53,613 bases of DNA from positions 1-53,613 of the forward strand of contig CALWMI010000085.1 in NCBI GenBank assembly GCA_944381745.1, in the 5' to 3' direction. Every line of letters starts with the position of its first letter. The stretch's first letter is position 1. Positions 46,607 through 51,041 of this stretch are shown piece by piece. Made by a program: the position numbers and the translations under genes. Source of the stretch: an uncultured Lachnospiraceae bacterium (GTDB lineage: Bacteria > Bacillota > Clostridia > Lachnospirales > Lachnospiraceae). The notes beneath the pieces were generated by a model. The model saw nothing but the letters and a program-made list of their open reading frames with translations. It ran no database searches and had not been told where the DNA came from.

Positions 46607-46990
46607 CTACACGGTCAGTTCGATTTGATTTCCCTCGATGCCGATCACACAGCTCTCATAGTACCCGTCGCCCGTCGTCCGGGGGCCGCTGGCCACCTGG
46701 TACCCGCCGTCTCTCAGCCTCTGCGTGAGATGATCAACCGCCTCCTTGCTTCCCAGGCTGAAGGCAATATGGATGTAGCCGGTGCGGGCCAGCCCTTTGT
46801 CCATATCCTCCATCCCAGGCTTCTGCATAACCTCCAGACGGGCTCCCCCGTCAAACTCCAGGAAATAGGAGCGAAAGCCCGTGGTCTTGTTGTGATAGCC
46901 GTCATTTGCTTTCGCCTGAAAGTACCGGACAAAGAAATCCCTGGCCTTTTCCAGGTCGTTGACATACATCGCCATATGTTCGATATGCAT
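46607..46990 (-). CDS. VOC-family (glyoxalase/dioxygenase superfamily) protein
   Basis: A 127-residue single-domain VOC protein. Putative metal ligands lie in the usual places: His5 (MHIEHMAMYV), Glu in GARLEVMQKP, His in TGYIHIAFSLG and the last Glu in NQIELTV. It has the typical lengths and beta-alpha-beta-beta-beta modules twice. Family members include lactoylglutathione lyases and epimerases, so its reaction is not determined. It lies upstream of mglB in the same direction with no terminator seen in the short gap, but the mgl promoter separates them. Confidence 0.75.
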   Translation of the reverse strand: MHIEHMAMYVNDLEKARDFFVRYFQAKANDGYHNKTTGFRSYFLEFDGGARLEVMQKPGMEDMDKGLARTGYIHIAFSLGSKEAVDHLTQRLRDGGYQVASGPRTTGDGYYESCVIGIEGNQIELTV

Positions 46991-47090: not shown

Positions 47091-47660
47091 TCAGAGCCCC
47101 TGTACATATTCATCCCGATATAGTATGACCGTGTTCTGCTCCCTTGATTTTTGCAGGTCTATCACGCGCTGGTTCGCGCTTCCCCGGAACCGGAGCGTCA
47201 GATCCCTCTCCTCTTCCAGATAAGGCCCATCCACCAGAAGGTCTGCAAGTTCCAGAAGCTCTCCCACCGCCGGCCTTGTCTCCTGCAATTGCCGCAGGCA
47301 CTCCAGGGTGTAGCCGGTGTACACCGTAAGGTGCTTCCCCATCTCCTTAATCCGCCTGCCCACCATACACAAGGCTTCTGGCTGGCAGAAGGGCTCCCCG
47401 CCGGAAAAGGTCACGCCGCCCAGAAGCGGGTCGCTTTGTATCTCCTCCAAGATGGCATCGATATCGGCCTCATATCCGCCGGAGAAATCATGGGTCTGCG
47501 GATTGTGGCACCCCGGGCACCGGTGGGGGCATCCCTGCACAAAAATCACATAGCGGATGCCCGGGCCGTCCACAATCGAGTTTTTGACCGTACCGGCCAG
47601 CCGGAGCGCCGTTTTACCCGAAAGGAGCTTCCTGTCATGAAGTTCTTGTTCAGAGCGCAT
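47091..47660 (-). CDS. nrdG: Anaerobic ribonucleotide reductase activating protein
   Basis: A 189-residue radical SAM activase. The iron-sulfur motif CPHRCPGC (Cys44, Cys48, Cys51) and the SAM-binding VTFSGGEPFCQ are intact. It creates the glycyl radical on the reductase using SAM and reductant. Its ATG overlaps the end of the small glycyl-radical ORF by 11 bases, so the two are translated together. An N-terminal extension of about 15 residues precedes the core. Third gene of the nrd operon. Confidence 0.94.
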   Translation of the reverse strand: MRSEQELHDRKLLSGKTALRLAGTVKNSIVDGPGIRYVIFVQGCPHRCPGCHNPQTHDFSGGYEADIDAILEEIQSDPLLGGVTFSGGEPFCQPEALCMVGRRIKEMGKHLTVYTGYTLECLRQLQETRPAVGELLELADLLVDGPYLEEERDLTLRFRGSANQRVIDLQKSREQNTVILYRDEYVQGL

Positions 47661-47805
47661 GTTTTACCCGGTCACGCTCCTCCGCCCGTTTCGCATTGTT
47701 GAAGCGGTCTGTCGTCCCCACCAGATATCCGGTAATTCTCCGGATCCGGTCAAACTTTACATCCTGTCCTACCATTCCATCTTTCGGCTGCACTTTTCCA
47801 ATCAT
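47650..47805 (-). CDS. Separate glycyl-radical peptide of anaerobic ribonucleotide reductase
   Basis: A 51-residue ORF between nrdD and nrdG. Its core RIRRITGYLVGTTDRFNNAK followed by RAEERDRVKH matches the extreme C-terminus of one-piece NrdD enzymes, where the glycine in RVxGYLG carries the stable radical (Gly681 in E. coli). Here that glycine is residue 26. It has its own GAGGAGG eight bases before the ATG, a 64-base gap from the nrdD stop and a different frame, so it is not simple readthrough. It overlaps nrdG by 11 bases. Since the long NrdD chain lacks this segment, the peptide should dock with it to make an active enzyme. Confidence 0.85.
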   Translation of the reverse strand: MIGKVQPKDGMVGQDVKFDRIRRITGYLVGTTDRFNNAKRAEERDRVKHAL

Positions 47806-47869
47806 AGGAACATCCTCCTCGTTCTCTAATATGATAAATTTTCCTTGTTGTTCTCTTCCTATCCCACTC

Positions 47870-50188
47870 TCAGCGGGTCGGATCCGCATACACCGGGGTA
47901 TCCGGGTATTTTTTGCGCAGCTCCCGCAGCTTTTCCACCGGGACTGCTTCCCCTTCGCGCCTCCCGCAGCGGGGGCATACCTCGTCAATCACGCCTGTGT
48001 AGCCGCAAACCGGATCCCTGTCTACCGGATGGTTCACTGACCCATATCCGACCCCGCATTCTTTCATATAGCGGATGACTGCCTCGAAGGCTTCCGGATT
48101 CTTGGACGTATCCCCGTCCAGCTCCACATAGCTGATATGCCCTGCGTTCGTCAAAGCGTGGTAGGGGGCTTCCAGGCGGATCTTGTCGAACGCCCGGATT
48201 GGGTAATATACGGGAATGTGGAAGGAGTTCGTGTAATACTCCCGGTCCGTGATCCCCGGCAGCTCGCCAAAGATCCTCTTGTCGATCCGCACAAACCGGC
48301 CGGACAGCCCTTCCGCAGGCGTGGCAAGCAACGTGAAATTAAGCCCTGTCTCCTCAGACTTCTCATCCAGCTTCTGCCGCATATGGCCGATAATCTCAAG
48401 CCCCAGCGCTTGGCTCTTGGGGCTTTCCCCGTGATGCTTTCCTGTCAGCGCCACCAGCGTCTCGGCAAGCCCGATGAAGCCCACGCTCAAAGTGCCGTGC
48501 TTGAGCACCTCCCCCACGGTATCGTCCACATCCAGCTTATCGGAATCCAGCCAGATCCCCTGCCCCATCAGGAAGGGATAGTTCCGCACCTTCTTCTTAC
48601 ACTGGATTGCAAAACGGTGCAGAAGCTGGCGGCATGCCAATTCGATCATTTTGTCCAGGCTCTCATAGAAAGCGTCCTGGTCCCCGTGGGCTTTGATACC
48701 CAATCTCGGAAGATTGATCGTGACAAAGCTTAAATTTCCGCGCCCGCAGGTGATCTCCCGGGAAGGGTCATACCGGTTCCCCATCACCCGGGTTCTGCAC
48801 CCCATATAGGCGACCTCCGTGTTATAATCCCCTTCCTTATAATATTGCAGGTTGAAGGGTGCATCCAGAAAGCTGAAATTGGGGAACAGCCTCTTCGCAG
48901 ATGTCCGGATTGCCAGGCGGAACAAATCGTAGTTCGGATCGCCCGGATGATAGTTTACGCCTTCCTTCACCTTGAAAATCTGTACCGGGAAAATCGGCGT
49001 CTCCCCATTGCCCAGGCCTGCTTCCGTAGCCAGCAGCAGGTTCTTCATCACCATCCGCCCTTCCGGCGAGCAGTCTGTCCCGTAATTGAGGGAGCTGAAA
49101 GGAACCTGGGCGCCGGCCCTGGAATTCATCGTATTCAGATTATGGATCAGGGCCTCCATCGCCTGATACGTCTCGTAATCCGTCCCTTTTAACGCCATAT
49201 CGGCCGCGCACTCATGCGCCTTGCGGATATCTTCCGGCAGAAGCACACGGCTTCCACAGATAATCTCGCCGCCATTCACCCATTCTTCCAGCTTCTTCTC
49301 AAATTCCTCTGCCGTTCCCATGCGGATATCCGTCCCCACGGCGGTCTTCATTTTTTCCATGAATCCGGACGCATCTGCCCCATCCAGGTCATATTTTATC
49401 CGGATATATTTTTCAAGGTTCTTAAAATACTCCTTGCGGAATGTCCGCACCACCCCATCGGCCATGGAATAATCGAAGTTGGGAATGGACTGCCCTCCAT
49501 GCATCTCATTCTGATTTGCCTGTATGGCGATGCAGGCCAGCGCCGCATAGCTTTTGATGGAATTCGGCTCCCGGAGATACCCATGCCCGGTACAGAAGCC
49601 ATCTTTGAAAAGCTTGATCAGATCGATCTGGCAGCAGGTCTCTGTCAGCATATAAAAATCCTTATCGTGGATATGAATATCGCCGTTGAGATGGGCCGCA
49701 GCAATATCTTTGGGCAGGATATAGTTGTCCACAAAATAATTGGAGCCTTCGGAGCCATATTTCAGCATCGTCCCCATGGCCGTATCCGCATCGATATTCG
49801 CATTTTCGCGCTTGATATCCTCATCCGCCGCGCTTCGGAAGGTAAGCTGCTGGTAAATTTTCACCAGATCCGCCTCGGATTTGCGGACCTTCGTGTGCTC
49901 TGCCCGGTAAAGGATGTAAGCCTTCGCCGTCTTGGCAAATCCCCATGCAATCAGCTTTTCTTCCACAATGTCCTGTATCTGTTCTACATGTGGGATCTCG
50001 CCATCGGGAAGCGAACGGATGATATCATCCACGAGATCATGAAACTGGAGCGGTGAAATCGCCTCAACCTGGGCAGCCTCATTTGCTTTGCGGATTGCAT
50101 CGTGGATTTTCTGTGCGTCAAAAGGCACTGTCGTACCGTTGCGTTTTCTGATAACGTCTGGATAAACAGTGCTTTTCAGGTTGCTCAT
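47870..50188 (-). CDS. nrdD: Anaerobic ribonucleoside-triphosphate reductase, large chain lacking the glycyl-radical segment
   Basis: A 772-residue class III reductase. The N-terminal ATP-cone (about 1-95; VIRKRNGTTVPFDAQKIHDA) senses ATP/dATP. The catalytic barrel has GDIHIHDKDFYMLTETCCQI, NYGTDCSPEGR and AYMGCRTRVMGNR, the last probably holding the thiyl-radical Cys. The C-terminus still has the zinc-site cysteines (DPVCGYTG and CPRCGRREG) but stops about 30 residues later with no RVxGYL glycine motif. That motif is in the ORF at 47650-47805. The start used, MSNLKSTVYPD, follows GGGGA. Under an NrdR-controlled promoter (50209-50277). Confidence 0.94.
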   Translation of the reverse strand: MSNLKSTVYPDVIRKRNGTTVPFDAQKIHDAIRKANEAAQVEAISPLQFHDLVDDIIRSLPDGEIPHVEQIQDIVEEKLIAWGFAKTAKAYILYRAEHTKVRKSEADLVKIYQQLTFRSAADEDIKRENANIDADTAMGTMLKYGSEGSNYFVDNYILPKDIAAAHLNGDIHIHDKDFYMLTETCCQIDLIKLFKDGFCTGHGYLREPNSIKSYAALACIAIQANQNEMHGGQSIPNFDYSMADGVVRTFRKEYFKNLEKYIRIKYDLDGADASGFMEKMKTAVGTDIRMGTAEEFEKKLEEWVNGGEIICGSRVLLPEDIRKAHECAADMALKGTDYETYQAMEALIHNLNTMNSRAGAQVPFSSLNYGTDCSPEGRMVMKNLLLATEAGLGNGETPIFPVQIFKVKEGVNYHPGDPNYDLFRLAIRTSAKRLFPNFSFLDAPFNLQYYKEGDYNTEVAYMGCRTRVMGNRYDPSREITCGRGNLSFVTINLPRLGIKAHGDQDAFYESLDKMIELACRQLLHRFAIQCKKKVRNYPFLMGQGIWLDSDKLDVDDTVGEVLKHGTLSVGFIGLAETLVALTGKHHGESPKSQALGLEIIGHMRQKLDEKSEETGLNFTLLATPAEGLSGRFVRIDKRIFGELPGITDREYYTNSFHIPVYYPIRAFDKIRLEAPYHALTNAGHISYVELDGDTSKNPEAFEAVIRYMKECGVGYGSVNHPVDRDPVCGYTGVIDEVCPRCGRREGEAVPVEKLRELRKKYPDTPVYADPTR

Positions 50189-50208: not shown

Positions 50209-50255
50209 AACAATATATAGTGTAAATTTTGTATTGATGATACTATATATTGTAT
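50209..50255 (-). promoter_or_regulatory. Two NrdR boxes
   Basis: AACAATATATAGTGTA (50209-50224) and ATACTATATATTGTAT (50240-50255) match the NrdR box (consensus near ACACTATATATTGTGT) and have centres 31 bases apart, the three-turn spacing known for cooperative NrdR binding. The second covers the -10 box, so NrdR with ATP/dATP should repress the operon. Confidence 0.88.
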
Positions 50256-50277
50256 CTTCGATGATTTTCCTTGTCAA
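50249..50277 (-). promoter_or_regulatory. nrdD promoter
   Basis: On the minus strand TTGACA (50272-50277), 17 bases, TACAAT (50249-50254). The -10 lies within an NrdR box. Confidence 0.8.
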
Positions 50278-50496: not shown

Positions 50497-50770
50497 ATGC
50501 TGAATATTCGACCTGTCTCGGATCTGCGAAATCACTTTTCTGAGGTTGAGGAAGAGGTCTTGACCAAAGGCGAGCCGGTTTTTCTTACCAAAAAACGGTT
50601 ACGGCTCCATGGTCCTGCTCAGTTTGGAGCAATACGAAGAACTGACAAACGATGTTGAGTTGGCGCTGGATGAAGCGGACCGCGCTGCGGACCTCTCTGA
50701 CACCCGCCATTCTGCCGACGAGGTTTTTAGCCGGGCAAGGAGGCGTATCCGTGAACGAAAAGCATTATGA
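50497..50770 (+). pseudogene. Phd/YefM-type antitoxin, frameshifted
   Basis: The ATG at 50497 has AAAGGAGG upstream and reads MLNIRPVSDLRNHFSEVEEE, the DNA-binding start of Phd/YefM antitoxins. At a run of six A (50590-50595) the frame breaks. With one A fewer it continues NGYGSMVLLSLEQYEELTND and ends ERKAL at 50768-50770, about 90 residues, normal for the family. It overlaps the toxin start. The break may be a true mutation, a slippery run that corrects itself at some rate, or a sequencing error. Confidence 0.75.
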
Positions 50771-51041
50771 GCTACGTTTTCTTCCGCTTTTTGAAGATAA
50801 TCTTGATGAAATCGTAGACCACATTACCTATCGTCTGAAAAACCCCGCTGCGGCAGAGTGCCTGGTGGATGAGGTAGAGACGGCCATTTTAGAAAGGTTT
50901 CCCTGTGCGGAATCCTTTGAGCCTTTCCACTCGGTACTGGGGTCGCGCTTGTTGAAGGAAGGCCTCGCCTATCGGCTCGGTCTGCGCTGTTGTGTGCTAA
51001 CGCACCCAACGGTCGCCACTGACGGCCCGCGCCCCCTTTGA
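50751..51041 (+). pseudogene. RelE/ParE-family toxin, C-terminus replaced
   Basis: A GTG start at 50751 has GGAGG eight bases before it and overlaps the antitoxin end. The first 72 or so residues (EKHYELRFLPLFEDNLDEI ... SRLLKEGLAYRL) are a standard RelE/ParE toxin. After about position 50970 the expected core end (Y-R-x-Y-V-x-x-F ... R-R-x-L-Y) is missing; the frame runs into GC-rich, hairpin-rich DNA and stops at 51041. The catalytic C-terminal strands are therefore lost and the toxin is probably dead. Confidence 0.7.

Follow-up and report, generated by a model that had tools for sequence, protein, structure and literature searches.

Many strict anaerobes obtain their deoxynucleoside triphosphates (dNTPs) from class III ribonucleotide reductase (RNR), NrdD. 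Oxygen destroys the glycyl radical of this enzyme. The subject here is an nrdD locus of an uncultured Lachnospiraceae bacterium (GenBank assembly GCA_944381745.1), in which the radical glycine appears to be encoded on a polypeptide of its own. The locus lies in a stretch of 53,613 nucleotides (nt), contig CALWMI010000085.1, which is referred to as the window. According to the relevant sections of PMC8683613, oxygen cuts the chain of a glycyl-radical enzyme at its radical glycine, and YfiD (GrcA) restores cleaved pyruvate formate-lyase (PFL) with a new radical domain. In those sections YfiD and Y06I are the only validated spare parts, and spare parts for other glycyl-radical enzymes are regarded as possible. 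In class III NrdD, the finger-loop motif is MGCR or MCCR (PMC9669993), and an excerpt of PMC11226230 gives Gly711 as the radical glycine of Prevotella copri NrdD. A split RNR, NrdJa/NrdJb, exists in class II, and split enzymes can be neutral, according to the part of PMC9669993 that deals with them. No description of a split or spare NrdD was found in full-text searches of open-licence PMC papers, and an earlier note on this DNA knew of no described function for the split.

The locus in the window most likely encodes a class III RNR whose radical subunit is detachable, an NrdD counterpart of YfiD/GrcA, in an operon with NrdR-type boxes that specifies two polypeptides and their activase. Its parts are the following (aa, amino acids).

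47870 to 50188, minus strand: nrdD large chain, 772 aa, with ATP-cone, catalytic barrel, MGCR finger loop and zinc-site cysteines, without the radical glycine
47814 to 47820, minus strand: ribosome-binding site GAGGAGG of the small chain, read from the sequence
47650 to 47805, minus strand: small chain, 51 aa, glycyl-radical peptide RIRRITGYLVGTTDRFNNAKRAEERDRVKH, putative radical glycine Gly26
47728 to 47730, minus strand: codon of small-chain Gly26, the putative radical glycine, located by counting and aligned with the radical-glycine loop of 8p23
47091 to 47660, minus strand: nrdG, radical-SAM activase, 189 aa (TIGR02491, 137.7 bits, cut-off 126.1)

The large chain has an ATP-cone (E 1.9e-20, 73.6 bits in the Pfam scan), covers positions 1-531 of the 562-position NRDD profile PF13597 with 634 bits, and reaches 1052 bits against NF005497 of NCBIfam (cut-off 764). 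Its MGCR finger loop is at residues 462-465 and its zinc-site cysteines are at 728, 738 and 741. The regular expression for the radical-glycine motif has no match anywhere in the 772 aa. The small chain matches NRDD positions 532-562 (E 3e-8), the profile being split exactly at 531/532, and the regular expression puts its radical-glycine motif at Gly26. The large and small open reading frames (ORFs) are separated by 64 nt, GAGGAGG is found 8 nt 5' of the small-chain ATG, and nrdG overlaps the small ORF by 11 nt. Thus the NRDD domain with ATP-cone, the finger-loop motif and an NrdG encoded alongside are all present, and the C-terminal radical glycine, normally a part of the same chain, sits on a separate 51-aa chain instead. 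Judged by its sequence, the large chain is a class III NrdD without one defining feature, the in-chain radical glycine. The earlier note had claimed a split NrdD whose large chain has no glycine motif and whose missing tail is the product of a 51-codon ORF; profiles, motif search and coordinates confirm this in every detail.

Among solved structures, P. copri NrdD (8p23) is the best match for both chains, and the two match adjoining parts of it; an alignment with one-piece NrdD had been proposed in the note. The translated small frame P0002, which is one residue longer, aligns with its residues 19-50 to residues 707-738 of 8p23_A; we infer a numbering offset between Gly711 and the 8p23 chain.

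The same arrangement is found in other bacteria. When the small chain was used as the query against 299 genomes of Lachnospiraceae, 14 genomes gave a match, always within a short open frame (54-112 aa). Every one of the 14 has a catalytic chain followed by an ORF of 50-58 aa with a purine-rich Shine-Dalgarno (SD) sequence, so that the gene order which the note proposed to look for in this family, large chain and then small chain, holds in every matched genome. A match to NrdG follows in 13 of the 14 and lies upstream in L030. Small chains of the family were assembled into a profile of 14 rows, A1, for wider searches among bacteria and viruses. In other families, 8 of the 40 A1 stretches examined show both a large and a small chain (G889 is too close to a contig end). 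A search of named genomes with A1 gave 577 confirmed loci. The best 80 were analysed, and they do not represent a frequency: there are 46 split and 26 one-piece loci, 6 orphans, and 2 loci truncated at contig ends. The small ORF of the 46 split loci is 51-64 aa long, an SD of at least 4 bases precedes it in 43 (with the start chosen for the best SD), and an NrdG-like ORF exists within 1.5 kb downstream in 39. Carriers include Massiliimalia timonensis, Scatolibacter rhodanostii, and metagenome-assembled genomes (MAGs) of Desulfovibrio, Bacilli and Mycoplasmatota. Another is a MAG labelled Anaerobiospirillum; note that MAG names may be wrong. No pair made of one family and one named split locus aligns over 1500 bases at more than 81% identity.

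The open small frame of the window extends upstream past the large stop into the large ORF and measures 112 aa from stop to stop. For this reason the window alone could not exclude a frameshift; its relatives do exclude it. One explanation is that the cell makes a single full-length NrdD and that the split reflects a sequencing error or recoding, by programmed frameshift or by read-through of the stop. The open frame of the window is compatible with this, and so are 13 of the 46 named split loci, where the chains are in the same frame with exactly one stop between them and the frame alone would allow read-through. In 17 of the 46 named loci and 9 of the 14 family loci, however, the small frame opens strictly 3' of the large stop, where neither one frameshift nor one read-through joins the chains. 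Furthermore, the gap from large to small chain ranges from -44 to 284 nt over the family and named loci, the stops at same-frame junctions of named split loci are of three kinds (TAA, TAG and TGA; 10, 7 and 3), and the small ORFs have starts of their own with the SD sequences described above. Recoding or error is extremely improbable as an account of the locus, and the joining of both chains into one by frameshift or read-through is ruled out by the frames, gaps and SD-preceded starts of the relatives. In one of these relatives, L023, the 204 nt between large stop and small start resemble a small inverted-repeat insertion, judged by eye.

To judge from substitution ratios, the small ORF is under purifying selection: its dN/dS in the window is 0.07 against L018, 0.08 against L158 and 0.06 against L020 (dS 1.0, 0.95 and 2.8). 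These are the three of five comparisons that have a finite dS; those with L019 and L022 are saturated. The two chains are also the sole RNR detected, with no match to the class I/II large subunit PF02867, in 3 of the 14 family genomes (G013, G030 and G183, which are 94, 86 and 94% complete) and in 20 of the 46 named genomes, including M. timonensis strain Marseille-P3753. In 3 of these 20 both chains are joined in one match through the stop codon. Such genomes would lack any ribonucleotide reductase unless the two chains work, with assembly gaps as a caveat. Because no other class I, II or III RNR is found in 23 of the 60 split genomes, the two chains probably supply dNTPs. The 60 bacterial split loci (14 family, 46 named), together with the genomes in which no other RNR is detected, strongly support the two-chain NrdD that the note had suggested.

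Upstream of nrdD, the following elements are found.

50210 to 50223, plus strand: NrdR-type box ACAATATATAGTGT, an exact match to the pattern used
50240 to 50253, plus strand: second NrdR-type box, with one mismatch, 30 bp from the first, from the pattern search
50249 to 50277, minus strand: promoter-like TTGACA-17-TACAAT upstream of nrdD, recognised by eye, its -10 element overlapping the second NrdR-type box

The pattern follows the NrdR box consensus. Just 5' of nrdD, 2 boxes are found against 0.43 expected, and at least 2 appear in 10 of 100 shuffled sequences.

Several observations weigh against a working two-chain enzyme. An intact one-piece NrdD of the E. coli type, with its own NrdG, is encoded elsewhere in the window's genome (contig 12, L001:1090-3852; NF006732, 957 bits). 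Another NrdD is found in 10 of the 14 family split genomes and a class I/II enzyme in 3 of the 14; the split enzyme is often not the sole RNR in its genome. Of the 20 named genomes with the split RNR alone, 19 have titles that mark them as MAGs or uncultured organisms, without a completeness figure, and the absence of other RNRs may be due to incompleteness. G256, the sole genome of the same genus in the family sample (93% complete), has no small-chain match, and the split locus may be patchy within the genus. No NrdG-like ORF is found downstream in 7 of the 46 named split loci, 6 of which (L163, L167, L178, L185, L201 and L218) have about 4 kb of searchable sequence; in these six, the activase must be encoded elsewhere or another activase must serve. 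Lastly, the note had envisaged a model of the complex. An AlphaFold model of a relative's read-through (48-row alignment), whose best overall match is P. copri NrdD, gave pLDDT below 50 for the stretch 752-826, which is the small-chain segment. Since the small chain was left unplaced, docking is something that we infer.

The intact NrdD and NrdG of contig 12 raise the question of whether the split nrdD is decaying and the one-piece enzyme does the work. The radical tails of the two enzymes differ, with RRTCGYIGTQFWNQG in the one-piece enzyme and RRITGYLVGTTDRFN in the small chain, and PF02867 has no match in this genome (assembly 94.87% complete). The earlier note had held that a second full-length NrdD combined with a silent split locus would contradict its reading. 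The full-length NrdD does exist; silence, on the other hand, is unlikely in view of the conservation of the locus, its NrdR-type boxes and the relatives in which no RNR other than the split one was detected. The same boxes and relatives speak against decay, as do the purifying selection on the small chain and the catalytic residues retained in both chains, and we consider a decaying locus very improbable.

The end of the large chain suggests how the split may have come about. After the zinc site it has a short C-terminal tail, GEAVPVEKLRELRKKYPDTPVY, which looks like a degraded version of the radical segment, and in a MAFFT alignment most of the 20 large-chain tails shown fall on the radical segment of one-piece enzymes. 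L172, for example, has GEGVPMERIKN in its large-chain tail and GEGVKFERIRRITGYL in its small chain. The best ungapped match of a tail to its own small chain has on average 4.6 identical residues of 11. Shuffled tails reach 2.35, and the real tail is ahead in all 46 cases. Probably the radical segment was first duplicated, and the copy within the large chain then decayed. In five loci (L130-L134) a one-piece NrdD, an extra radical ORF and nrdG exist in tandem, and these look like an intermediate of the split.

A tree was made from 161 catalytic cores without the radical segment, each labelled by whether its own chain has an A1 match. Near copies and short rows were dropped, leaving 118 rows, and removal of L001 and L032 (one-piece enzymes of the E. 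coli type) left 116. On this tree the split label changes 9 times, compared with a mean of 39 for shuffled labels, and at least 3 changes are forced by starred branches; the tree search was quick and 40 of the 113 inner branches are open. The pattern fits repeated origin, loss or transfer of the split.

Bacteria also have radical proteins of another kind, encoded by separate ORFs, in which the same radical tail follows a different N-terminal half. By the starts chosen they are 89-112 aa long (the start in L132 is unreliable). Five are in tandem with nrdD and 14 are away from it (L138 and L140-L152). Twelve of these 14 genomes have a complete one-piece chain, G560 has a chain cut by a contig end, and G347 has a chain in two frames. 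A radical ORF of about 90 aa is also present in Ruminococcus flavefaciens FD-1 (L205) and in a Marvinbryantia MAG (L212). AlphaFold gives such a protein an ordered beta-alpha-beta-beta N-terminal half and a low-confidence tail. The best PDB match of the N-terminal half is of the ribosome-hibernation type and is not significant (E 0.17). The match between the tails of spare and one-piece proteins is 0.89 within a genome and 0.82 across genomes (8 genomes), too small a gap to lean on. Scans of Pfam, NCBIfam and PHROGs showed no dedicated family model for small radical proteins. Directly 5' of nrdG in L129 (G853, reverse strand, 2216-2501) there is a frame of 95 aa that combines a zinc site with the radical tail, and no catalytic part was found in the 2.2 kb upstream, up to the contig end. 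It is a candidate remnant or zinc-bearing spare.

These proteins bear on whether the split means anything for the cell. It is possible, though doubtful, that it is a neutral gene fission, in which the chains form one stable enzyme and their separateness has no repair or regulatory role. The precedent of NrdJa/NrdJb and of neutral split enzymes, mentioned above, is in favour of this, as is the fact that just one small chain is listed in 14 of 14 family and 41 of 46 named split genomes. Against it, the tree shows the split state more than once, extra radical proteins are present in one-piece genomes, and extra radical-tail matches exist in some split genomes (G840, G996, G997, G1000, G1029 and G1038, two of the matches being below the family cut-off). 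G840 has two extra small ORFs besides the operon, and one of these frames is identical to that of a viral contig (L258). Viral contigs that retain the peptide alone are a further point against neutral fission.

The viral search, A1 against IMG/VR, gave 301 confirmed loci. Among the best 80, 60 are orphan radical ORFs, 10 one-piece, 9 end-cut and 1 split. The 60 orphans are 59 distinct frames, and 5 of them have a catalytic chain elsewhere in the locus. For 50 of the 55 without one, the whole record was searched, and 49 of these show no other NrdD part; none of the searched records is rated 90% complete, and a catalytic NrdD may be encoded in a missing part of the phage. As a control, a 51-aa segment of the barrel was taken from the same 14 proteins and searched in the same way (best 80 of 140 loci); it is more conserved than the radical segment (mean column identity 85% vs 65%). 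Among complete viral ORFs, 0 of 71 are shorter than 200 aa for the barrel control, compared with 70 of 79 for the radical segment. Plain decay of nrdD as the source of the free peptides is ruled out by this control. The separate radical chain of some gut bacteria and the apparent carriage of the radical peptide alone by viruses of such bacteria suggest that the fragile radical part of the enzyme is an exchangeable piece.

Among viral NrdD chains with a complete C-terminus, 21 of 78 have no in-chain motif by the regular expression, and a short radical ORF exists in the locus of 15 of these 21. Several of the 15 are near copies or contigs already in the orphan set, and L344 is more like a frame-broken chain. 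The remaining motif-less chains, without a radical ORF in the locus, are in L345, L347, L378, L379, L395 and L396; L345 and L243 come from one contig, and L243 has a radical ORF at another place. The ORFs near the peptide in 13 viral loci match integrases, tail fibres, replication initiation, endolysin and, weakly, terminase small subunit, and some have no PHROG match. Both matches examined in annotated phages (among annotated phage and plasmid records) are one-piece NrdD. L278, L281 and L288 (IMGVR_UViG_2561511128_000007, _000005 and _000026) share one IMG genome number and have a short NrdD radical ORF each, the radical proteins of L278 and L281 being nearly identical. In L308 and L317, with frames of 118 and 102 aa, the viral radical ORFs have an N-terminal half unlike that of the bacterial proteins of about 90 aa.

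These data give slightly better than even odds that radical subunits are a mobile, exchangeable part of NrdD, which anaerobes have either as a second, obligate chain or in the form of spares, and that phages of anaerobes carry the peptide alone: with it they would activate or reactivate host NrdD to make phage DNA, and need no gene for the large enzyme. The viral peptides would then serve the host's large chain. Conversely, the free peptides, above all the viral ones, could be inhibitors that block the barrel of the host enzyme. No catalytic chain accompanies them, and by docking they could displace the own tail of a one-piece enzyme. They retain, however, the glycine and tail motif needed for catalysis, and the short ORF is the only radical segment listed beside 15 of the 21 motif-less viral chains (one of the 15 doubtful). 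Inhibition is therefore improbable.

In the simplest working model of the proposed two-chain enzyme, the large chain would bind allosteric nucleotides and substrate, keep the zinc site, and end near the start of the radical loop. The 51-aa chain would provide the glycine loop and the C-terminal tail and dock on the mouth of the barrel. NrdG would generate the glycyl radical on Gly26 of the small chain, and the radical would then move to Cys464 of the finger loop and start nucleotide reduction. The MGCR motif suggests formate as the likely reductant. The split large chain resembles a permanently pre-cleaved NrdD with a stub. Because the cut made by oxygen falls at the glycine, the cell could swap a damaged peptide of about 50 residues for a new one and keep the large chain.

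Whether glycyl-radical enzymes other than PFL have spare parts is a question left open in the relevant sections of PMC8683613, and the present data name concrete candidates for NrdD. They have three forms: a second chain in the operon, a protein of about 90 aa beside one-piece NrdD, and the peptides of viral contigs. Proteins this small are easily overlooked or labelled as NrdD fragments. In a natural two-chain system, radical formation, docking and exchange become directly measurable.

Some neighbouring frames of the window were judged by eye. A small glyoxalase-like ORF is found downstream of nrdG (46607-46990, minus strand). At 50497-51041 there is an antitoxin-like frame in two pieces followed by a RelE/ParE-like frame, and beyond it minus-strand sequence with a relaxase-like N-terminus.

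Compared with known systems, the window enzyme has the ATP-cone, barrel, zinc site and radical loop RITGYLVGTTDR in common with P. copri NrdD (PRK07111 type, PDB 8p23). P. copri NrdD has all of these in one chain, where the match of the large chain ends at 705 and that of the small chain starts at 707. The window enzyme is cut at this point, with extra residues on each side and a decayed duplicate in the large chain. NrdJa/NrdJb, a B12-dependent class II RNR, is likewise divided into two chains towards the C-terminus; the window enzyme differs from it in class, as the window's genome has no match to PF02867. The comparison with YfiD/GrcA, made in the earlier note, gains support from the free-standing radical proteins beside one-piece NrdD and from the radical-only viral contigs. 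YfiD/GrcA and T4 Y06I are likewise small proteins with a radical glycine that complete a glycyl-radical enzyme from outside; carriage by phage is shared (T4 Y06I), and the target enzyme retains a stub that extends to the glycine position, as far as the sections of PMC8683613 on these proteins describe it. The partner here is NrdD and not PFL, and the sequence matches NrdD profiles only: at E up to 0.001, the small chain finds only NRDD-type models in Pfam and NCBIfam, with no PF01228 or GrcA model listed, and at E up to 10 four other radical proteins find NrdD-type models only in NCBIfam, and NRDD plus two unrelated chance-level matches in Pfam. By these profiles, the small chain is YfiD/GrcA-like in logic and not a member of that family. 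YfiD, as portrayed in the same sections, is a reserve for cleaved PFL, whereas the small chain of the window is encoded in the operon, next to a large chain that has no glycine of its own.

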